Origin: a virus
Direction: 5' to 3' (one strand)
Virus record (IMG/VR): IMGVR_UViG_3300045952_000267
Span: 1 to 21,235 of that record
Length of the DNA: 21,235 nt
Shown here: in pieces, positions 1 through 19,758 of the stretch
Position numbering within the stretch: position 1 is the first letter of the stretch
How the letters are laid out: the number at the start of each line of letters is the position of its first letter
Notes under the pieces: generated by a model
Databases searched by the model: none
What the model was told of the DNA's origin: nothing
The model's input: the letters and a program-made list of their open reading frames with translations, nothing else
Program-made: the position numbers and the translations under genes

Positions 1-1
1 T

Positions 2-382
2 GACTTCCAGCTTGACTCCCAAGCACGTCCAACCATCCCCTTCTATCAGGGTCAACGTGTAATTGTGGACGACGGAATGCCCGTCTCTGGAACTAGTTAT
101 ACTAGCTATTTGTTCGGTGCTGGAGCAATTGGCCAGGGCGAAGGCAATCCCAAGGTGCCTGTTGAGACAGAGCGCAATGCATTGATTGGCGGTGGTGAAG
201 AATACCTCGTTGAGCGGCGCCATATTGTGCTGCATCCGCGTGGTATCAAGTGGAATCCTGTATCCGGGACTCCAGCGCTTGACACTCCTTCCAACACCGA
301 ACTTGCGACAGTCGGCAACTGGCTCCGTGTCTGGGAAGCAAAGAATATCCGTATCGTGCGGTTTATTCACCGGCTGGCATAA
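2..382 (+). CDS. major capsid protein, C-terminal part (start lies upstream of window)
   Basis: An open frame enters the window at base 2 and stops with TAA at 382, giving about 126 residues of a protein whose N-terminus is outside. The visible part contains VDDGMPVSG, YLFGAGAIGQGEG, PVETERNALIG and RRHIVLHPRGIKW, an order I associate with the C-terminal half of the Gp13-like major capsid protein family of siphophages. That protein forms the icosahedral shell. An internal ATG at 65 exists but has no ribosome binding site and lies inside the conserved region, so it is not a start. A strong terminator follows directly, which fits a highly expressed capsid gene. The family name is from memory of the motif pattern, not from a search; the capsid role is also supported by the head and tail genes downstream. 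Confidence 0.82.
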   Translation, partial: DFQLDSQARPTIPFYQGQRVIVDDGMPVSGTSYTSYLFGAGAIGQGEGNPKVPVETERNALIGGGEEYLVERRHIVLHPRGIKWNPVSGTPALDTPSNTELATVGNWLRVWEAKNIRIVRFIHRLA

Positions 383-415: not shown

Positions 416-453
416 AGGGAGTGTCTTAACCCGGGAGGTTGGCACTCCCTTTT
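416..453 (+). terminator. intrinsic terminator after the capsid gene
   Basis: The arm 416-425 (AGGGAGTGTC) pairs with 441-450 (GGCACTCCCT) with one T-G wobble. Inside it AACC (428-431) pairs with GGTT (437-440) around a 5-base loop. The 3' arm runs straight into TTTT (450-453). This is a classical rho-independent terminator placed 34 bases after the capsid stop and before the next ribosome binding site. It should lower readthrough from the capsid gene into the downstream genes. Confidence 0.85.
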
Positions 454-10375: not shown

Positions 10376-13300
10376 ATGGCACGTCTTGCTAGATCTCTAC
10401 CCGGATTAATCATTAATCGGCATGGTCCGGACGAGGTTAATGCGCCCTATCTGCGGTCGTATTCAAATACGACTTATACCTCGCGTACCACCAGTACGAC
10501 ACTGACTGCGCCGACTGGTATCCAGAACGGCGATCTACTGATCCTGACGCAGGTCATTGGTGTTACCGGATCATCACCACCGACGCCAACGCCGCCGACC
10601 GGTTTCGTCGCGGTTCCAAATACCACACTCGTCGATGCCAATGACGGCAGTTTTCGAGCCCACTTTTATGTCTGGTATAAGGTAGCCAGTAGCGAGGCAG
10701 GCAGCTACGTCTGTACTCACAGCGGAACTGCCAGTACGCAGTTGGCGATGGTGGCAGTTGCCGGGGCTGACACCACAAATCCTATTGATGCTTCCCAGGG
10801 TAGCCAGGGAACTGCAACGGCGACATTTAGCGCAACCGGCGTTACAACGACTGAAGCAAATGATTTCCTTGTCATTGTTGATCACGATTGGGGCATAGCA
10901 CCGGGTACACAGACGCCTCCTTCTGGTTTTACCGAAATCATTGAAACCACACTGAGCCATGCGTTTGTGAAGTTGCAAACGGCGGTCGGTGCCACTGGCA
11001 ATTTTTCAATTGGCACTTCCAACAGTGATAACGACGCGTGGGCTGCTGCGGTCATTGCCGTCCGCAAGCCTATTTCCGGCGACATCCTGCAGCCATCGCT
11101 CTACAGCGATGACGATAGCTTCTATCCGCCAACTGTCATTCCGGGCTTAATAACTCTTACTCCAGACCTATATACTGATACAGATATTTTTCAAACACCA
11201 ATTATTGTATATGCACTGACGCAGGCGGCGCTTTACGAAGACACAGATATATTCTTTGGGCCTACAGTGGGTGTGGGTACGGTTAATCTTGCGCCTGCTC
11301 TTTACGATGATGCCGATGCATTTTACACAGCCACAGTTGCCGCCGCCGTTCCACTTCAAGGTTTTGTTACGTGGGCCTATATAGAGGGTACTGAGGTTGC
11401 TCCAAAATCGCTGACACCGTCGCACTATGATGACAGCGATACGTTTTATTCAGCTACCATCGCTACAGGCGCTGTTGATCTTGCGCCGAATATCCATACT
11501 GACACAGATATATTCTTCTCATTAACTGCAATAGCCGGTACAATCAATATTTCACCATTGCTCTATGTCGATGGTACACTTGGATATGATCCATGGAACG
11601 GCAGCTGGGGTACTTCGTGGGGTAGTAGCTGGGCGGCTACAGGAGCACCCGATTTCTTCTATGAACAGACAGTCACACTAACTGCGCCTGGTGAGCAGGG
11701 AATTTTTCCATCTTATTATAATGATACTGATATATTCTATACTCATATAGTTATTGGTGATATTAGCCTAACTCCTAACTTATATACCGATATAGATAGT
11801 TTTTATACACCAACTGTTTTTGGCTTGTACACAATAACTCCACCCCTTTATACGGACTCGGAAACATATTATACACAAACGACCAGCTATATTTATGCTC
11901 TAACGCCATCTCTATATACAGATACCGATATATTCTATACTCAACTATCAAGTTATCCGTTAGTACCGTCTCTGTATACGGATCCTGAAACATATTTTAC
12001 ACCGACAGTTGTAAGCGGTGCTGTTAATCTAACTCCAGCACTTTACACTGATACAGATTCGTTCTATACACCAACCCTTGGGCGCGGCGCTGTTAGCATA
12101 ACGCCTTCCCTGTACACCGATGCGGATACATTCTATACGCAGATGGTTGCGTCTACATATGCATTGACGCCTTCCCTGTATACTGATGCAGATACTTTCT
12201 ACACGCAGACACTTGTTTCAATTTATGCTCTAACACCTTCTCTCTATATAGATGCAGATATTTTCTACACGCAGATGGTATCGTCTACATATGCGTTGAC
12301 GCCAGCTAAATATACTGACAATGAAACATATTACACCCAGACGGTAGCGTCTACATATGCCCTAACCCCATCTCTGTATGTAGACAGTGAAACATATTAT
12401 ACGCAGACAGTATCCTATACATATGCTCTAACTCCATCTTTATATGTCGATACGGATACGTACTATAATCACCTCCTGGAAAGAGCAGGTGAAAAGAATG
12501 TAGCTCCGGATCCATATACGGATACGGATACTTTTTATACGCCAACCATTACCACTGGAGCAGTCAATATTGCTCCATCCCTTTATACTGATGCGGATAC
12601 TTTCTATACACAAACCGTAGTGTCAACGTATGCGTTGACGCCTTCCCTGTATACTGACAATGACACTTTCTACACGCAGACTGTTGCATCCATTTATCCT
12701 CTAACGCCTGCCAAGTACACTGATAACGATACGTTCTATACGCAGACGCTATCGTCTACATACGCTCTATCACCTGCTAAGTATACTGACAACGATACGT
12801 TCTATACACAGACACTGGTGGGTGGTGCTGTTAATCTAACACCACCTCTCTATATTGATACTGAGACATACTATACTGGAACAATCCAAGTTGCTCCTAT
12901 CCAGGGACTAACTCCGGCACTCTATACTGATACAGATACATTCTATTCAGTTATTGTAGCGCCTGACCAGGCAATGCACCCATTCCTATATGTGGATGGT
13001 GAGGGATTCTATACACATATTCTTGTATCGACTTATGCACTTGTACCATCTCTGTATACCGATGACGATACATTCTATTCCGTTTCGGATGTAAGCTATC
13101 CTGTTGCAGTTGGCTTATATATTGACGACGATATATTCTATACGCCTGCTCTGACTGGAGCTGGGTTTATTGCACCTAGCTTGCACATCGAGAGTGATAT
13201 AATTTATAGTGTACGTTTAGCGCTCGTTACTGATACAGATACTGATCGTTACGCTCGCGTTATAGCTGAAGATCGAGCTGCAAGGGTTATAGCCGAAACT

Positions 13301-13456
13301 CGAACTGTTCAAGTCATAGCGGAAGACAGATTTGCTCGAGTAGTGGCAGAAGATCGTTATGCCAAGGTAATAGCGGAAGATCGTTATGCCAAGGTGATAG
13401 CAGAAGACAGAGAAGGCGACGCACCAGCCGAAGGAAGGTTTGCGGAGGTACCGTAA
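10376..13456 (+). CDS. giant repeat fibre protein (22-residue aromatic repeats, nonapeptide tail)
   Basis: 1026 residues; ATG 10376 follows the upstream TAG with no gap. Residues 1-235 are a beta-sandwich domain (NGDLLILTQVIGV, FYVWYKVASSEAGSYVCTHSG, LAMVAVAGADTTNPIDASQG). Residues ~238-948 hold about 30 copies of a ~22-residue unit with consensus LTPSLYTDxDTFYTQTVxxxYA, Tyr/Asp/Thr-rich and lacking Cys. One unit is enlarged by a Trp-rich insert (W407, W411, W415, W419 in DPWNGSWGTSWGSSW). Residues 957-1019 are seven nonapeptides with consensus DRxAxVIAE. The regularity suggests an elongated solenoid or bead-like beta rod, perhaps a whisker or tail/head fibre with surface aromatic and Asp ladders that could bind ions or glycans. 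Repeats are diverged at DNA level, showing selection on the protein. A glycosyltransferase-like gene lies about 300 bases downstream. Exact fold and location in the virion are unknown. Confidence 0.8.
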   Translation: MARLARSLPGLIINRHGPDEVNAPYLRSYSNTTYTSRTTSTTLTAPTGIQNGDLLILTQVIGVTGSSPPTPTPPTGFVAVPNTTLVDANDGSFRAHFYVWYKVASSEAGSYVCTHSGTASTQLAMVAVAGADTTNPIDASQGSQGTATATFSATGVTTTEANDFLVIVDHDWGIAPGTQTPPSGFTEIIETTLSHAFVKLQTAVGATGNFSIGTSNSDNDAWAAAVIAVRKPISGDILQPSLYSDDDSFYPPTVIPGLITLTPDLYTDTDIFQTPIIVYALTQAALYEDTDIFFGPTVGVGTVNLAPALYDDADAFYTATVAAAVPLQGFVTWAYIEGTEVAPKSLTPSHYDDSDTFYSATIATGAVDLAPNIHTDTDIFFSLTAIAGTINISPLLYVDGTLGYDPWNGSWGTSWGSSWAATGAPDFFYEQTVTLTAPGEQGIFPSYYNDTDIFYTHIVIGDISLTPNLYTDIDSFYTPTVFGLYTITPPLYTDSETYYTQTTSYIYALTPSLYTDTDIFYTQLSSYPLVPSLYTDPETYFTPTVVSGAVNLTPALYTDTDSFYTPTLGRGAVSITPSLYTDADTFYTQMVASTYALTPSLYTDADTFYTQTLVSIYALTPSLYIDADIFYTQMVSSTYALTPAKYTDNETYYTQTVASTYALTPSLYVDSETYYTQTVSYTYALTPSLYVDTDTYYNHLLERAGEKNVAPDPYTDTDTFYTPTITTGAVNIAPSLYTDADTFYTQTVVSTYALTPSLYTDNDTFYTQTVASIYPLTPAKYTDNDTFYTQTLSSTYALSPAKYTDNDTFYTQTLVGGAVNLTPPLYIDTETYYTGTIQVAPIQGLTPALYTDTDTFYSVIVAPDQAMHPFLYVDGEGFYTHILVSTYALVPSLYTDDDTFYSVSDVSYPVAVGLYIDDDIFYTPALTGAGFIAPSLHIESDIIYSVRLALVTDTDTDRYARVIAEDRAARVIAETRTVQVIAEDRFARVVAEDRYAKVIAEDRYAKVIAEDREGDAPAEGRFAEVP
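11087..13219 (+). repeat. ~30 tandem 66-bp-class coding repeats (22-residue unit)
   Basis: Within the large fibre gene the motif L-Y-T-D-x-D-T-F-Y-T recurs about thirty times at a spacing of 21-23 codons, with a few longer units (around 11350, 11588 and 12480). Several adjacent units between about 12110 and 12820 are nearly identical in DNA, while the first and last units are strongly diverged. This pattern suggests expansion from the centre of the array by unequal recombination or slippage. Confidence 0.92.
13244..13432 (+). repeat. seven nonapeptide coding repeats
   Basis: Codons 957-1019 of the fibre gene read as seven 27-base units of consensus D-R-x-A-x-V-I-A-E. Units 5 and 6 (13352-13378, 13379-13405) encode the same nine residues and differ only at two third-codon bases. 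The last unit (DREGDAPAE) and the following GRFAEVP are degenerate. Similar nonapeptide ends are, as I recall, common at the C-termini of phage proteins lying directly before a small protein of the kind encoded next here. Confidence 0.9.
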
Positions 13457-13457
13457 G

Positions 13458-13745
13458 ATGGCAATATCTTGGCCTGCACCTAAGGATCCCAATGACATTA
13501 AGGACTATGCCCTGGACTGGTCGCCCAAGCTTCCAGACGGGGATATTCTTATTGGCTCAGAATGGTTTGTTGTAGATGAAACTCAGAGCTTGGTTATTGA
13601 TAGCTCTAGTTTTACCGACACATTGTCTACTGTATGGCTTTCGGAAGGTGATGAAAGTAGCGCTGTGGAAGTGCTCAATCGTGTTACTACCCAAGGTGGT
13701 CGGCAGTATGATCAAACCATGAAGCTGAAGATCAAAACCCTGTAA
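13458..13745 (+). CDS. conserved small phage protein
   Basis: 95 residues from ATG 13458, with GGAGG at 13444-13448 inside the end of the repeat gene. The sequence MAISWPAPKDPNDIKDYALD, then SSSFTDTLSTVWLSEG and a C-terminal RVTTQGGRQYDQTMKLKIK match a small beta-rich protein I have seen often in siphophages and prophages (W-P-x-K-D-P-x-x-x-x-D-Y start, TTVWLSxG core, TxxGRxxDQTxxLKI end). It may cap or anchor the fibre that it follows. No function is established to my knowledge. It overlaps the next gene by one base (TAATG). Confidence 0.78.
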   Translation: MAISWPAPKDPNDIKDYALDWSPKLPDGDILIGSEWFVVDETQSLVIDSSSFTDTLSTVWLSEGDESSAVEVLNRVTTQGGRQYDQTMKLKIKTL

Positions 13746-14563
13746 TGTTGTGGGTAGTAGTAGCCAAGGAGCGTAGAGACAAACAACTTGTTCAAGCTGA
13801 GGCAATGATAGATGGGTTACGTGGTCACGGGGTCAAGGCTGAGATATGCTTGGATGATCCGCCGAACGATAAGGACCCCTTCATTGCGCGTGGGCAATTA
13901 TGGGTTGTTGAGCGTATTGTACCCAAAGCGCTCAAAACGGGACAACCTTTCTGGATTATTGATAATGGATTTTACAAATATGGAAGAGGTGGCTATTATA
14001 AAATCACCTACAAAGGATTAAGTCCAATTGTGCTTAAGAATCCAGACACAAAACGCTTTCCTCCGGAGAAGGTAATGCACCCTTGGATTCAAAAACGTAG
14101 TGAAAGGGGCTATGTACTGATAGGGGTCCCTGGACCAAAATTTGGCAAGTGTTTAGGTATAGATGTACCTACATGGATTAAAACAATTTATCAAAGAGTG
14201 AGGGCAAACACAAATAGAAGGGTTATAGTCCGTGAAAAATGGACTCAGAGTCCCACATTGGCGGAACATCTTGCCGGTGCTCACGTGTTGGTTACTCATA
14301 GCAGCAATATTGCTGTTGATGCAATAATTCAGGGTGTACCAGCAATTGTTGAGTCAACCAATCCAGCAGCACCAGTTTGTGCTCAATCCTTGGACTATAT
14401 AGAAAGGCCCCTTTATCCAGATAGAAGGTCTTGGTGGCGGTCTCTAATGTGTCAACAATTTAATGATGTAGAAATGTCAAATGGTCTAGCATGGCATTGG
14501 ATGAAAAAAGTTCAGGAGCAGGTTGATGGTGAGCCGTTGCCTAGTAATTGGGTCGGCGCGTAA
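13745..14563 (+). CDS. putative glycosyltransferase (capsule/GT-B-like)
   Basis: 272 residues, ATG 13745 sharing a base with the upstream TAA. The C-terminal half contains TLAEHLAGAHVLVTHSSNIA followed by VDAIIQGVPAIVES, a pattern typical of the nucleotide-sugar-binding half of GT-B enzymes and of capsule polysaccharide synthesis proteins: a Thr-His-Ser-Ser loop, an acidic/hydrophobic helix, then G-V-P. Before it are a basic RRVIVREKW strand and an N-terminal half with PFWIIDNGFYKYG. The tail (RPLYPDRRSWWRSLMCQQFN) matches the end of similar phage/bacterial proteins as I remember them. It may glycosylate the repeat fibre or remodel host glycans. The assignment to transferase is an inference from the motif order, as no direct catalytic signature is fixed for this group. 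Confidence 0.6.
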   Translation: MLWVVVAKERRDKQLVQAEAMIDGLRGHGVKAEICLDDPPNDKDPFIARGQLWVVERIVPKALKTGQPFWIIDNGFYKYGRGGYYKITYKGLSPIVLKNPDTKRFPPEKVMHPWIQKRSERGYVLIGVPGPKFGKCLGIDVPTWIKTIYQRVRANTNRRVIVREKWTQSPTLAEHLAGAHVLVTHSSNIAVDAIIQGVPAIVESTNPAAPVCAQSLDYIERPLYPDRRSWWRSLMCQQFNDVEMSNGLAWHWMKKVQEQVDGEPLPSNWVGA

Positions 14564-15117: not shown

Positions 15118-15159
15118 GGTGTTGCGGGTCCTTCGCTCCAGGGGTTGATCCGCAACACC
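15118..15159 (+). promoter_or_regulatory. long stem-loop before head-tail connector gene
   Basis: GGTGTTGCGG (15118-15127) is exactly complementary to CCGCAACACC (15150-15159); three more pairs, one of them G-T, extend the stem to 13 bp around a 16-base loop. There is no T-run after it, so it is not a normal intrinsic terminator. It lies in the 85-base gap at the end of the accessory block, 9 bases before GGAGG of the next gene. It could be a processing site, transcript-end stabiliser, antitermination target or weak terminator. Confidence 0.65.
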
Positions 15160-15177: not shown

Positions 15178-15717
15178 ATGGCCACATTGATTATCGAAGA
15201 AGGCACTGGAGAAGAGGATGCGAACGTCTATACCTCTATGGCTGATTCTGATGCCTATCATGATTCGATGGGTCATACTGATTGGGTCCAGGTATCGCCG
15301 GACAATGCTCGTATTCAGGCCAAGATCCGCGGTGCGGCATACATTGATCGAAAATATGCAACTCAGTGGCCTGGGACACGAGTTAATGGGCGTAGTCAAT
15401 CAATGGCGTGGCCGCGGGAAGATGCTTATGACCAAGAAGGTGAGCTGATTGATAGTGAATCAGTTCCTCGCGAGGTCAGAATTGCTTCTATGGAAGCAGA
15501 ATACAGGGAATTCCTGGAGCCTGGATCCCTTTCCCCGGACGTTACTCCAGCACAGCAAGTGATTTTTGAGCAAGTTGGTAGCCTTGCTGTTCGGTATAGT
15601 GATACAACGGGTGTTCAGGCTCAATTGCCTGTTCTTACGGAGATTGATGAAATCTTAGCCAATATTATTGGTGACCCCTCTAGTGGGGTTGGTGTTACCT
15701 GGGTAAATCGAGCATAA
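15178..15717 (+). CDS. head-tail connector (DnaT-like family)
   Basis: 179 residues from ATG 15178, preceded by GGAGG at 15168-15172. VYTSMADSDAYHDSMGHTDW near the N-terminus and then ARIQAKIRGAAYIDRKYATQWPGTRV, followed by QSMAWPR, are characteristic of the siphophage family annotated as DnaT-like ssDNA-binding protein, which in practice is the first head-tail adaptor that docks on the portal ring. C-terminal helices (ILANIIGD) and a short tail complete a normal length for the family. It restarts the conserved neck gene order after the 14 kb accessory block. It overlaps the next gene by TAATG. Confidence 0.85.
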   Translation: MATLIIEEGTGEEDANVYTSMADSDAYHDSMGHTDWVQVSPDNARIQAKIRGAAYIDRKYATQWPGTRVNGRSQSMAWPREDAYDQEGELIDSESVPREVRIASMEAEYREFLEPGSLSPDVTPAQQVIFEQVGSLAVRYSDTTGVQAQLPVLTEIDEILANIIGDPSSGVGVTWVNRA

Positions 15718-15959
15718 TGGGCGAAGTCATATTTCTACAACAGGTACGTGAAAAGATAGATGCTGCTGCGAAACATGGCGTAGCGTTGGAAAATGTTCTC
15801 GATCGCGTTCAATTGGAGAAGCTTAACACAATAATGGTGTTTCACGACGATGGTCATGTCATCCACTGGACGCGCCTCAAGACAACCGAACAATTTAGTT
15901 GGCTTAGAAAGTGTTTTGACTCGATCGTCTCCCGCTCCAAAAAGGCAACTAAAAAGTGA
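15717..15959 (+). CDS. hypothetical small phage protein
   Basis: 80 residues; ATG 15717 shares a base with the upstream TAA. The sequence VIFLQQVREKIDAAAKHGVA, IMVFHDDGHVIHWTRLK and a basic tail (SRSKKATKK) suggest a small alpha/beta fold ending in a positively charged tail. The 3' half lies in a region also open in the frame of the NusG-like gene, so the two may overlap by up to 110 bases. No family is recognised. Confidence 0.65.
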   Translation: MGEVIFLQQVREKIDAAAKHGVALENVLDRVQLEKLNTIMVFHDDGHVIHWTRLKTTEQFSWLRKCFDSIVSRSKKATKK

Positions 15960-16419
15960 TTGGCTCATTGTTCATGTGTTTCCAGGACGTGAAATGAATG
16001 TTTGTGAGTATGCGGAAAGACATGGACTCATAACATATTTTCCTCGAATAAAGAAAATGATTAAACCGCCTAAGAAGCGGAAGCCCATATTTCAAGAAAC
16101 CCGCAATGCTGTCTTCCCAGGATATGTATTTGTTTTGTTTGATTGGGGTTGGAAAAAGTTGCTGCAGGCCGATTATGTGATAAAGTTCCTGGGTGATGAT
16201 GAGATACCTGCATTAATATCCAATTTTGATATTGAGCAGATACAGAATGTAGAGGAAGCAGGATTTATATCAAGAAATCGTGGTATAGTGATAGGCGATG
16301 GTGTTGTGGTTAAAGTCCTAGGTGATATCACGTTGCCAGTAGAATCTATTGGAAAAAGCAGCATATTCTTATCTGCTGGTGCATTTCGAATTAAAATACC
16401 ACTTGTGTCAAGCGATTGA
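15850..16419 (+). CDS. NusG/RfaH-like transcription elongation factor (NGN domain)
   Basis: Up to 189 residues; the start is uncertain. ATG 15850, ATG 15856 and TTG 15916 are in frame and none has a strong ribosome site; the conserved domain begins at W38, so TTG 15916 would suffice. DWLIVHVFPGREMNVCEYAE matches the first NGN strand and helix (W-x-V-x-x-x-P-G-R-E), YFPRIKK and FPGYVFVLFD (P90-V95) match the next strands, and IQNVEEAGFI resembles the last NGN helix. This domain binds the RNA polymerase clamp helices and keeps it elongating. The C-terminal part (GDGVVVKVLGDITLPVESIG...) occupies the KOW position but lacks the usual G-x-F-x-G-x-x-G core. A phage-encoded paralogue here probably acts on the phage's own late operon, as RfaH or LoaP do on long operons. 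Confidence 0.75.
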   Translation: MVMSSTGRASRQPNNLVGLESVLTRSSPAPKRQLKSDWLIVHVFPGREMNVCEYAERHGLITYFPRIKKMIKPPKKRKPIFQETRNAVFPGYVFVLFDWGWKKLLQADYVIKFLGDDEIPALISNFDIEQIQNVEEAGFISRNRGIVIGDGVVVKVLGDITLPVESIGKSSIFLSAGAFRIKIPLVSSD

Positions 16420-16434
16420 ATAATATACTATAAT
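16405..16434 (+). promoter_or_regulatory. possible sigma70-like promoter (GTGTCA-N18-TATAAT)
   Basis: A perfect TATAAT at 16429-16434 lies 18 bases after GTGTCA (16405-16410; four of six bases as in TTGACA). The -10 sits in an AT-rich patch just after the stop of the NusG-like gene. Transcription would begin near 16441 and give a ~75-base leader before the next ATG. A chance match in AT-rich DNA is possible. Confidence 0.4.
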
Positions 16435-16467
16435 TATTGGATAAATCTCGGAAACAACTTGCGCGTG

Positions 16468-16504
16468 GGGACATGGCGCAGACGAGGTCCCAGGGTGTTC
16501 ACCC
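16468..16504 (+). promoter_or_regulatory. structured leader before second connector gene
   Basis: Two small hairpins can form in the 97-base gap between the NusG-like and connector genes: GGGAC (16468-16472) with GTCCC (16487-16491), then GGGT (16493-16496) with ACCC (16501-16504) around a 4-base loop. The following ATG at 16517 has no clear Shine-Dalgarno sequence, unusual among the genes here that do not overlap a neighbour. The leader could control translation or serve as an RNA signal for the adjacent elongation factor. Confidence 0.4.
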
Positions 16505-16516
16505 GGTACTTTAGCT

Positions 16517-16876
16517 ATGGCTGATTTCTATACTAGGATGCAGGCAACTGCGAACCGTTTGTTGGGTAAATACCAACAAGGTACGGCGGCGTTGATTAGA
16601 GCGGAAATCAGTACTCCTGGAAATCCTTGGTCCCCTGTACAATCTGCACCTACTCAATATCCATTGACAGTTGTGGTTGAGCCAATAGCGAAGAAGTATA
16701 TTGATGATAAGGTAATATTTTCTGATGATCGAATGGTATTGTTTCAAGTATTAGATATCGAACCTGTTCTTACTGATCGAATTATGTTGGGTAGTAAGAC
16801 ATTTGAGATTAAGAAATTGTTTCGTTATCCTGATGCAGGCATGGCATGTTATCATGCGGCGGTAATCTGTGCGTAA
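16517..16876 (+). CDS. head-tail joining / head completion protein
   Basis: 119 residues, ATG 16517. MADFYTRMQATANRLLGKYQQGTA is the usual amphipathic N-terminal helix of small siphophage head-completion proteins (stopper/connector type), followed by beta-rich sequence (PLTVVVEPIAKKYIDD, DRMVLFQVLDIEP, KTFEIKKLFRYPDAG). Length fits the family. It would stack below the DnaT-like adaptor to close the capsid channel before tail joining. The ribosome binding site is weak or absent and the leader is structured. It overlaps the next gene by 8 bases. Confidence 0.75.
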   Translation: MADFYTRMQATANRLLGKYQQGTAALIRAEISTPGNPWSPVQSAPTQYPLTVVVEPIAKKYIDDKVIFSDDRMVLFQVLDIEPVLTDRIMLGSKTFEIKKLFRYPDAGMACYHAAVICA

Positions 16877-17900
16877 ACCTATTACTGCTGGCGAGAGAAC
16901 AGCATGGTTGGAAGATGTACATCAACCTTTAATGCGTGATGGTTATCTTACTTCCATTGAAAGCATAGTTACCAATATTGATTTAGGTGAATTGGAGCGT
17001 TTAATTGGGGTAGGTGATGTCGAAGCAGCATACAAGGCCCTACATATTGATAATGCAGCTTTTCGACCCTATGATATTACTTTTACAAATGCTTTCGAAC
17101 AATCGGCTACATTTGAAACAATGGCTATGCCATCCATGGAGGATGCTCAGGGCCGTAAAATTATATTTCGTTTCGATATTAGAAACATCGAAACCGAACG
17201 GTGGCTACAAGAATATCTTGGTGGATTCATCACTTCTATTACTGATGAGCAACGAGATGTTGTCAAATCCCACATCCTTAAAGGGTATGAAGATAAGCTT
17301 GCAAATAAATCGATTGCACTTGGGATTGCGGGCAGAATAGATCCAACTACTCGAATGAGGCAAGGTGGCGTGGTGGGCCTATCAAAACCTCAAGAGGAGT
17401 ACGTGACCAATGCGCGCCGGGAACTCACTTCTGGATCTATTGACGATATGCATAGTTACCTTCGTCGCTCCCTTCGTGATAAGCGTTTTGACAGTGTTGT
17501 TACTAATTCTATAACTCAGGGCAAGCCCTTGAATGCTGAAACGGCAGACAAGTTAGTTAAATCCTATTCTAATCGGCTTCTTCGTTTTCGAGCTGGATTA
17601 ATTGCACAAGTAGAATCCGGTGTTGCAATCAATCAGGGTAAAATAAGTTCTTATGTCCAAGCTATCCGCAATGGTGCTTTTCGCTCCGAACAAGTGGAAA
17701 AGACTTGGAGATCGATGCGCGATCAGAACGTCAGATTTACACACAAGTCTCTCGATAATCAGGTTGTTGCCCTGTACGATAAATTTAAGAGCCCAAGCGG
17801 TGCATTGCTCGATTACCCTCGTGATCCTGAAGCACCGGCTGACGAAAGAGTGGGTTGCCGCTGTCGAATGTACATTCGCGTGAATGGCAGGGTTAGATAA
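16869..17900 (+). CDS. minor head protein (Mu gpF / SPP1 gp7-like)
   Basis: 343 residues from GTG 16869, overlapping the previous gene by 8 bases. The C-terminal ~80 residues carry the family signature: EKTWRSMRDQNVRFTHKSLD, then FKSPSGALLDYPRDPEAPAD and GCRCRMYI with C330 and C332. The family binds the portal/capsid interior and is thought to assist DNA ejection or head assembly. The N-terminal 250 residues are mostly helical. The position, after connectors and far from the capsid gene, differs from the common portal-gpF-scaffold-capsid order. Confidence 0.85.
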   Translation: MRKPITAGERTAWLEDVHQPLMRDGYLTSIESIVTNIDLGELERLIGVGDVEAAYKALHIDNAAFRPYDITFTNAFEQSATFETMAMPSMEDAQGRKIIFRFDIRNIETERWLQEYLGGFITSITDEQRDVVKSHILKGYEDKLANKSIALGIAGRIDPTTRMRQGGVVGLSKPQEEYVTNARRELTSGSIDDMHSYLRRSLRDKRFDSVVTNSITQGKPLNAETADKLVKSYSNRLLRFRAGLIAQVESGVAINQGKISSYVQAIRNGAFRSEQVEKTWRSMRDQNVRFTHKSLDNQVVALYDKFKSPSGALLDYPRDPEAPADERVGCRCRMYIRVNGRVR

Positions 17901-18391
17901 TGGCTCTTTCACCTAATTATAGAGCGCCTAATGTTTCCATCCGAGGAAGCTCTCTTCGTAAAAATTCGCAGGCAACTTTTAAAGCCCAAATTGATGAATG
18001 GGTGAATAAGACCAAAGCACGGATGGATTTGGTCCCAAAGCTAGCAACCTTTCGCCTTTCGCAGGTAATGCAAACCACCGTCTACGAAGGTGGTAATCTT
18101 CCATATAGGCATGGTTATCTTCGAGCCTCTTTGAAAGTTACCTTTAATTCGGATGCCCCTCGTGCAAATCGTCTTAAGTCCAACTCAACGACGATTTACA
18201 ATGAAGACGCAACCAGGATGGCCATCTTTGGAACGCCTCCTGGAGCGACAATACGCTTGTCTTATACCATGAATTATGCTCGTATCCTTGAGTATACGGG
18301 CAAACATGCAGGTTATGTGATGCGTTCTGTACAGCGTTGGCCAACAATTTTTCATGCTGCTGTTCAGGAAGCGAAAGGGATGATCAAGTGA
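17900..18391 (+). CDS. HK97 gp10-like neck/tail-completion protein
   Basis: 163 residues, ATG 17900 sharing a base with the previous TAA. The N-terminal part is basic and helical (ATFKAQIDEWVNKTKARMDL), the middle has VYEGGNLPYRHGYLRASLKV and the C-terminus YTMNYARILEYTGKHAGYVM followed by RSVQRWPTIFHAAVQEAKG. The order of Y-A-x-x-x-E-Y-x-G-x-x-A-G-x-V-x-x-x-x-x-W is typical of gp10-like proteins, which sit at the head-tail interface. It overlaps the next gene via GTGA. Confidence in the role comes from motif and conserved gene order. Confidence 0.78.
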   Translation: MALSPNYRAPNVSIRGSSLRKNSQATFKAQIDEWVNKTKARMDLVPKLATFRLSQVMQTTVYEGGNLPYRHGYLRASLKVTFNSDAPRANRLKSNSTTIYNEDATRMAIFGTPPGATIRLSYTMNYARILEYTGKHAGYVMRSVQRWPTIFHAAVQEAKGMIK

Positions 18392-18798
18392 GCGCCGAAG
18401 CTGATGTCTTTGATGCTCTGATGTCACATGTGGAGGATATTCCTCTTTCCCCTTATTTACCTGTTGCTTGGCCTAATTTCGCTTACGAACCTGTTGTAGG
18501 GGTTCCATATCTGGAAGCTCGCCATTTGCCCAATGACAGTGATCGTATAATGATTAGTGAACCAACTGATAGGATGTACGGAATATTGATGCTTACTATC
18601 AATACACCTATAAATCAGGGTATTGAAGATGTAGTTGAAGCCGCTGGTGCTATTTGTGAGCACTTTGCTACGGATACTCGCCTGTATTCGGGAGATACAG
18701 AAGTTCGAGTGTATCGACGTCCCACTCAGAAAGAAGGTTTAAACTTGGACGGGTGGCTTAAGACACCCATCCTTGTTTATTATGAAGCATTCGCCTAG
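18388..18798 (+). CDS. tail terminator protein (DUF4128-like)
   Basis: 136 residues from GTG 18388, which overlaps the upstream TGA as GTGA and follows AAGGGA at 18375-18380; the in-frame opening at 18337 would lie inside the preceding gene. LPVAWPNFAYEPVVGVPYLE, then MYGILMLTINTPINQGIEDV, HFATDTRLYSG and a final DGWLKTPILVYYEA match the phage tail-terminator-like family. These form a hexameric ring that stops tail tube growth and joins tail to head. Its place just before the tail tube gene agrees with lambda-type order. Confidence 0.88.
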   Translation: MSAEADVFDALMSHVEDIPLSPYLPVAWPNFAYEPVVGVPYLEARHLPNDSDRIMISEPTDRMYGILMLTINTPINQGIEDVVEAAGAICEHFATDTRLYSGDTEVRVYRRPTQKEGLNLDGWLKTPILVYYEAFA

Positions 18799-18858: not shown

Positions 18859-19344
18859 ATGGCTATCTACGCGACAGCGGGCGCAAGGCTCTACATCGGC
18901 CCGCAGATGGACACCCAGGACGATGACTTTGTCCTTGGTGACTTTGAAGGTGCTTCGCCCGTCCTCACCTGGACTGAGATTTCTCCAACCGAGAACCTGG
19001 GCACCCTTGGTGACTCGAACGAGGTTATTAACTTCGATGCGATTAACTTAGGTCGTAGGCAGAAACTCAAGGGCGTTGCTGATGCTGGTACGATGCAAGT
19101 CGTATGCGGCAATGATACTGCCAATGCTGGACAGGTTGCTGCCTATGCGGCCCAAGCAGAACCGGGAACCTATGCGTTCAAAGTTCAGTTTAATGACTCG
19201 TCGCTCTCCGGCACCCCGTCTCTGCGCTATTTTGTCGCGCACGTGATGTCAGCGTCGGAAACACTTGATACCGCTAACAACGTTATCAAGTTCAACATGA
19301 CGTTGGGTGTTAACTCCAACGTGGTCAGGAAGAATCGTACGTAA
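18859..19344 (+). CDS. major tail tube protein
   Basis: 161 residues from ATG 18859, ribosome site AAGGAG. The sequence (GARLYIGPQ, WTEISPTENLGTLGDSNEVI, RRQKLKGVADAGTMQVVCGN, TANAGQVAAYAAQAEPGTYA, YFVAHVMSASETL) follows the beta-barrel tail tube pattern of lambda gpV-like proteins, with the R-x-x-K-x-K-G-x-x-D-x-G-T/S-M core. Its position between tail terminator and frameshifted chaperones is the canonical place. Hexameric rings of this protein form the tail tube through which DNA passes. Confidence 0.9.
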   Translation: MAIYATAGARLYIGPQMDTQDDDFVLGDFEGASPVLTWTEISPTENLGTLGDSNEVINFDAINLGRRQKLKGVADAGTMQVVCGNDTANAGQVAAYAAQAEPGTYAFKVQFNDSSLSGTPSLRYFVAHVMSASETLDTANNVIKFNMTLGVNSNVVRKNRT

Positions 19345-19359
19345 GTAGAGGAGTGTGTG

Positions 19360-19758
19360 ATGGATCTGTTATCAATCCGGCCGGATTCCATCGAAGTACC
19401 TATCAATCATCCAGGGACACGCAAGCCGCTTGGACTAGTTCTCAAATGTGTGTCCCTGGAAGATGAGCGCGTTAAGGCAATTGAGCGTGTGATGAAGAAT
19501 AAGGCTCTTCGTGCTGGTCGTAATTCGATGTCTGCGGAGAAGATGGACGAAAACACGCTCGCCTTACTATGTGCCACTGTAGTTGGTTGGACTTGGCCCG
19601 AAGAACTCACTTTGGGCGATTTGGCTAAGCCTGATGCGACTCCGGAGAACGTTCGTAAGTTGTTGTCTATCAACTGGATAGCTAAACAGTTGGATGATGC
19701 TCTTGGAGATGATTCGGCTTTTTTTACGAAATCGGCACTGAACTCTGCTCCATCATAG
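19360..19758 (+). CDS. tail assembly chaperone (gpG-type, unshifted product)
   Basis: 132 residues from ATG 19360 with GAGGAG at 19347-19352; a GTG one codon upstream is also possible. Helical and acidic, with WPEELTLGDLAKPDATPENV, then RKLLSINWIAKQLDDALGDD and SAFF just ahead of the slippery run, matching gpG-like chaperones that coat the tape measure protein during tail building. Reading past the run in frame gives a short tail (TKSALNSAPS) and a stop at 19758. Most ribosomes should make this form; a minority shift to give the longer product. Confidence 0.88.
   Translation: MDLLSIRPDSIEVPINHPGTRKPLGLVLKCVSLEDERVKAIERVMKNKALRAGRNSMSAEKMDENTLALLCATVVGWTWPEELTLGDLAKPDATPENVRKLLSINWIAKQLDDALGDDSAFFTKSALNSAPS

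Follow-up and report, generated by a model that had tools for sequence, protein, structure and literature searches.

A NusG-family gene without a recognisable KOW domain among the head-tail genes of a phage late operon

NusG travels on the host RNA polymerase, and its tail domain contacts Rho and the ribosome. Residues I164-F165-G166 of E. coli NusG touch Rho, RfaH has lost these residues, and F56 of RfaH is required for polymerase binding (PMC7593976). Prophage-borne rfaH-like genes are mentioned in the same paper. LoaP-type RNA hairpins are characterised by a UNCG tetraloop (PMC12691694). A phage-like head-tail cluster of 14-kb in Caulobacter needs antitermination (PMC11150451). Lambda Q and Caulobacter GafZ share with the protein described here a proposed role in the readthrough of late head-tail genes, but as proteins they are unrelated to it, and they act from the operon start. 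Closer at hand are the terminase-linked phage NusGs (PHROG 6386 and PHROG 25909, for instance in phi3LM21 and vB_MseS-P1), which like our protein are phage-encoded, contain an NGN domain and lie on the strand of the late genes. They are found upstream of the terminase and mostly have a KOW domain, whereas the NusG discussed below lies between the head-tail adaptor gene Ad1 and the head closure gene Hc1 and has no recognisable KOW. Phage NusG paralogues are already known as annotations; what is new here is the position in the neck region and the loss of a recognisable KOW.

The window, by which we mean the whole stretch of DNA analysed, is a fragment of 21,235 bases, and the terminase, the early genes and any second NusG would fall outside it. 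Every called gene in the window is on the plus strand, and the features are the following.

1..382, plus strand: C-terminal end of the major head protein, truncated where the window begins (PHROG 247 'major head protein', 8.5e-39)
416..453, plus strand: terminator-like hairpin (stem, then TTTT) directly 3' of the capsid gene, a candidate readthrough site
15118..15159, plus strand: 13-bp hairpin without U-tract, directly 5' of the Ad1 ribosome site (z -4.22)
15178..15717, plus strand: head-tail adaptor Ad1 (PHROG 477, 8.5e-35)
15717..15959, plus strand: 80-aa ORF sharing bases with both the Ad1 stop (TAATG) and the beginning of the NusG-like ORF
15850..16419, plus strand: NusG-like ORF (PF02357, 1.3e-11; PHROG 6386, 4.8e-13), start at ATG 15850 or TTG at about 15916
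15958..16245, plus strand: NGN domain with FPGYVFV (RfaH F56-type phenylalanine), from profile, AF2 model and fold matches
16255..16416, plus strand: non-canonical C-terminal part without GPF loop and without IFGR (Rho-contact) loop, from profile, model and comparison with NusG
16420..16516, plus strand: 97-nt spacer containing a promoter-like site; its fold is no better than chance (z -0.39)
16517..16876, plus strand: head closure Hc1 (PHROG 161, 3.5e-12)
16869..17900, plus strand: head morphogenesis protein, Mu F-like (PHROG 3517, 1.1e-83)
17900..18391, plus strand: neck/tail completion protein (PHROG 169, 7.3e-7)
18337..18798, plus strand: tail terminator (PF13554, 5.2e-26; PHROG 179, 4.9e-20)
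18859..19344, plus strand: major tail protein, tail tube (PHROG 158, 2.9e-15)
19357..19758, plus strand: tail assembly chaperone (PHROG 313, 4.3e-7)

The order runs from the capsid end and the 416-453 hairpin, through a stretch of about 15 kb with structural and accessory genes, to Ad1, the 80-aa ORF, NusG, Hc1, the Mu F-like gene, and the neck and tail genes. A reading made earlier from the sequence alone (the sequence-only reading) had placed a NusG-like gene among head-tail genes and had described a long late operon with a terminator at 416-453; the profile matches to Ad1 and Hc1 on either side bear out the first statement, and the one-strand genes with the terminator-like hairpin after the capsid gene agree with the second. 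Two further genes of this block may be recorded in passing. Positions 10376-13456, within the capsid-to-neck block, encode a 1026-aa protein with many diverged repeats (LYTDTDTFYT-like) and no PHROG match, and 13745-14563, inside the structural operon, has a weak match (0.0052, under the cut-off) to the putative glycosyltransferase family DUF6716.

Counted from its first ATG the NusG-like ORF has 189 amino acids, of which residues 37-131 match Pfam NusG (PF02357; E=1.3e-11, 45.3 bits against a cut-off of 22.2) and residues 34-138 match the PHROG 6386 profile 'transcription antiterminator' (4.8e-13). Its first 35 or so codons are shared, in another frame, with the 80-aa ORF (15717-15959), for which no relative was found. 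Because of this overlap, and because the NGN begins only at 15958, the TTG at about 15916 may be the true start, giving 167 amino acids; the sequence fits ATG 15850 too. The possibility that NusG is entered by frameshifting out of the 80-aa ORF was set aside, as no slippery site is apparent by eye and in-frame starts are present.

An AF2 model of the protein, built with 56 viral sequences, reaches block mean pLDDT values of 91-97 across most of the NGN and 70-84 in the middle loop. Among solved structures it matches polymerase-bound RfaH and NusG, the best match being RfaH on RNA polymerase (8pen chain P; Z 12.2, 98 residues, rmsd 2.7). Profiles and predicted fold together confirm membership of the NusG/Spt5 superfamily by the NGN domain; in the model, this domain presents the same fold and FPGYVFV surface that NusG and RfaH use to grip the beta-prime clamp helices of RNA polymerase. 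The clear NGN domain of the sequence-only reading is therefore upheld, Pfam, PHROG and fold matches being in agreement, as are the three motifs it had picked out (W38, PGRE and FPGYVFV; the second reads FPGRE). At the position of RfaH F56 the window protein has F, as against L or M in the alphaproteobacterial housekeeping NusGs compared; the F seen among viral NusGs is not independent evidence, since the scan that collected them selected on the FPGYVFV motif itself.

Below the level of the superfamily, the scores against the NCBIfam families compared all stay under their cut-offs. The view that it is not the housekeeping NusG is supported by its score against TIGR00922 (25.3 bits, equivalog cut-off 135.7) and by the absence of IFGR from its sequence. 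Against RfaH (TIGR01955) it scores 18.2 bits where the cut-off is 144.5, and against UpxY (NF033644) 27.8 bits where it is 100; LoaP (NF033641) gives the best family-level NCBIfam score, 28.5 bits (1.4e-6) with a cut-off of 125. The likeness to RfaH consists of the closest solved NGN fold, the FP.Y.FV motif with F56 and the absence of the Rho-contact loop, but the score lies far below the cut-off, the C-terminus is a different one and no ops element occurs above chance. LoaP is similarly two-sided: it scores highest among the specialised NusGs and a hairpin lies nearby in the window, but the score is below the cut-off and the predicted fold contains no UNCG hairpin.

The last 48 residues (RNRGIVIGDGVVVKVLGDITLPVESIGKSSIFLSAGAFRIKIPLVSSD), taken in isolation, score -0.8 bits when compared with a profile built from 55 viral NusGs; the 'GD.V.V' strand, the first strand, is all that aligns. 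Confidence in the whole-protein AF2 model drops below a pLDDT of 50 here; modelled alone, the tail gives a weak all-beta structure (mean pLDDT 61) that matched no solved fold at E <= 0.001, a result that means little given the low confidence of the model. A shrunken barrel is possible, judging from the model and from a residual pattern in which the GD.V.V strand is followed by two further beta-prone stretches. Housekeeping NusGs of three alphaproteobacterial genomes carry DGPFASF[ND]G and SIFGRATPV in this region, and in comparison with them neither was found in the window protein. The earlier description of a degenerate KOW was thus too mild, there being no KOW profile match, and what stands of it is the residual strand. 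Among 85 NusG sequences compared, the KOW end aligned in 71, some of the others being truncated by contig ends. In a few of the 85 the tail is of another kind: in the viral-contig sequences L173, L193, L134, L198 and L202 a basic stretch (RRWRKSRKP-like) and a conserved WSAF.D.I..LD..GR..AL replace the KOW, and by sequence these five form a KOW-less NusG class.

Close relatives of the window NusG were not found by single-protein searches of phages, viral contigs and genome contigs. A plasmid search returned one match of 28%, to a host nusG, and nothing else, and 289 alphaproteobacterial-class genomes gave matches of 23-38% identity only. Extra NusG-like paralogues occur beside the housekeeping copy in alphaproteobacterial genomes (G001:C1:1329689-1330081 and G007:C23:514467-514982). 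The best viral-contig match, L115, is 31% identical over 129 residues, and no relative exceeds about 31-35% identity. In a tree the window protein falls within a set of 24 viral rows, itself included (SH-aLRT 95). Its terminal branch is the longest in the tree, which leaves its precise placement uncertain; with identities this low and a branch this long, function by homology is weakly founded.

One FPGYVFV motif scan yielded about 77 distinct viral-contig paralogues, a count that is a lower bound and biased to the F56-type, as only exact-motif NusGs are taken. The earlier statement that phage NusG-family factors are uncommon is true but already on record, in PHROG families, annotated phages and these viral contigs; a literature search on exact phrases such as 'phage NusG' returned no paper using such wording in the collection searched. 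In L115 the order is helicase, replication initiator, NusG, small terminase, large terminase, and in the Sinorhizobium phage phi3LM21 and the Mesorhizobium phage vB_MseS-P1 it is replication initiator, NusG, terminase; in PPF1 the NusG lies near the end of the linear record, after the gene of an HTH-domain regulator and methylases. Large terminases and HNH nucleases are the top families among 82 same-strand ORFs downstream of viral NusGs, and upstream there are ORFs for primases, helicases and primosomal proteins, among others, as well as 14 PHROG 426 members (labelled small terminase). For ten members of the 24-row set, the large ORF lying downstream encodes a large terminase in nine cases and a head protein in one; these ORFs were chosen by size, and the tally of 82 is the less biased. 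Phage NusG paralogues typically lie near the large terminase, after the replication genes, at the early/late boundary, in a place that by gene order resembles that of lambda Q and that fits antitermination of the late operon.

This position bears on the first alternative to an operon-linked role, that an NGN-dominated protein displaces host NusG from all polymerases late, uncoupling Rho and/or the ribosome with no operon specificity. Such host takeover would suit a protein that retains the NGN while its KOW-type C-terminus is gone, and a late accessory gene at a junction variable in gene content. The related phage NusGs, however, keep the KOW (71 of 85) and lie near the terminase, which suggests an operon-linked role. 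We regard this explanation as unlikely.

Relatives of the phage itself were collected through the head-morphogenesis protein, which is 39% identical to its counterpart in Rhizobium phage RHph_X2_24. The scans returned 79 viral loci and 15 genome (prophage) loci, nearly all from Alphaproteobacteria, and an alphaproteobacterial host is therefore likely. Near the neck, a NusG was found in 0 of the 79 viral and 0 of the 15 prophage loci. Whole-record searches found a NusG-family gene in two of 42 viral relatives and in one prophage (beside the host copy), each time 12-16 kb upstream of the head gene. In the two viral relatives no terminase was located; the Pseudorhizobium prophage has the order NusG, further genes, large terminase, portal, scaffold, capsid (also PHROG 247), Ad1.

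The Ad1-Hc1 junction varies in gene content, with gaps of 200 to 1,360 bases in about 20 relatives, often occupied by a conserved opposite-strand gene. In Rhizobium-phage relatives this gene encodes about 165 aa with no Pfam match (e.g. L002:7006-7512(-) and L003:7057-7548(-)), and tests of the neighbour proteins at the junction of Rhizobium phages for NusG gave none. The NusG gene could on this ground be accessory cargo with little or decaying function, one more insert where some 20 relatives carry other sequence, and its branch length and unrecognisable C-terminus would agree. Against decay, the frame is open, the NGN core is intact and GC3 resembles that of the neighbours, and we find cargo of this kind quite improbable.

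The hairpins of the window are candidate sites of action. The 383-471 region folds at -37.4 kcal/mol (z -2.47), but consensus terminator matches in the window number 16, with 16.1 expected by chance, so that individual terminator sites are unproven. The hairpin at 15118-15159 noted by the sequence-only reading is real (z -4.2); it is the strongest among 70 Ad1 leaders, lies 0.8 kb upstream of the NusG gene and, in its predicted fold (leaders being taken within the fragment only), has no UNCG tetraloop. Intrinsic terminators occur just before Ad1 in eight of 57 distinct leaders of relatives (L002, L003, L014, L025, L027, L030, L053 and L081), before Hc1 in none of 60 and before the Mu F gene in none of 70. 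Whole records of RHph_X2_24, P106B, L025, L030, L053 and L081, which have a terminator before Ad1, were searched and contained no NusG. To judge from these comparisons, 15118-15159 resembles a place where termination or attenuation recurs in this operon, and it is a plausible readthrough target.

A further alternative is that the protein acts as a specific antiterminator, loaded at 15118-15159 in the manner of LoaP or at an ops-like site in the manner of RfaH, and the strength of this hairpin, its closeness to the gene and the LoaP score speak for it. Since relatives without a neck NusG have terminators or hairpins at the same place, 15118-15159 is not demonstrated as a loading site; the missing tetraloop and a LoaP score of 28.5 of 125 also count against it. 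The ops pattern has 25 matches in the window at <=2 mismatches, with 15 expected, three of them with one mismatch and none exact; the one-mismatch sites, best at 16858-16869, are at chance level, and a diverged target would escape this search. Rfam gave nothing at its thresholds and one sub-threshold match on the opposite strand. The claim that the protein recognises a sequence or an RNA hairpin, which the sequence-only reading had put forward, was not supported, and specific loading is in our judgement distinctly improbable. Re-use of the NGN fold as a structural neck protein, for which the position among neck genes is the sole argument, is highly improbable, the RNA-polymerase-facing motif being kept and no relative having such a neck protein.

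The explanation that we favour, with moderate confidence, is a specialised NusG paralogue (NusG-SP) that sits at the NusG site of the polymerase without bringing in Rho and makes transcription of the distal late operon more processive. With its NGN fold and polymerase-facing motif, the protein would be made from the late transcript and bind, at the NusG site, the polymerases that transcribe phage DNA; with the Rho loop absent, it would exclude host NusG, be unable to recruit Rho and suppress pausing. Given its place in the late operon and the terminator-like hairpin upstream, a larger fraction of polymerases would then get past the two hairpins, the one 3' of the capsid gene and the one 5' of Ad1, and go on to the neck, tape-measure and tail genes farther along. 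A gene about 15 kb into the late operon is unlikely to be an on-switch, and the timing would be that of a feed-forward processivity factor, not of a switch first turning late genes on. The gene may have originated as a terminase-linked NusG paralogue of other phages, inserted at the variable Ad1-Hc1 junction. Counted against this processivity reading are the several relatives that keep terminators before Ad1 without a NusG, the failure to find a recruitment signal and the position of the gene inside the very operon that it would help. A narrower reading, a late-made NusG that acts through its NGN by itself (lacking a KOW and contacting neither Rho nor S10) as a feed-forward antiterminator inside its own operon, is put forward tentatively and is unlikely.

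The finding points to a broad and little described set of phage NusG paralogues near the terminase, in the place where lambda keeps Q. If the window protein acts on the polymerase, it would offer a natural way to ask what an NGN lacking the Rho/ribosome-binding KOW does for a 20-kb operon, and if the NGN-only feed-forward reading is true, the logic would differ from that of a Q-type switch before the terminase.
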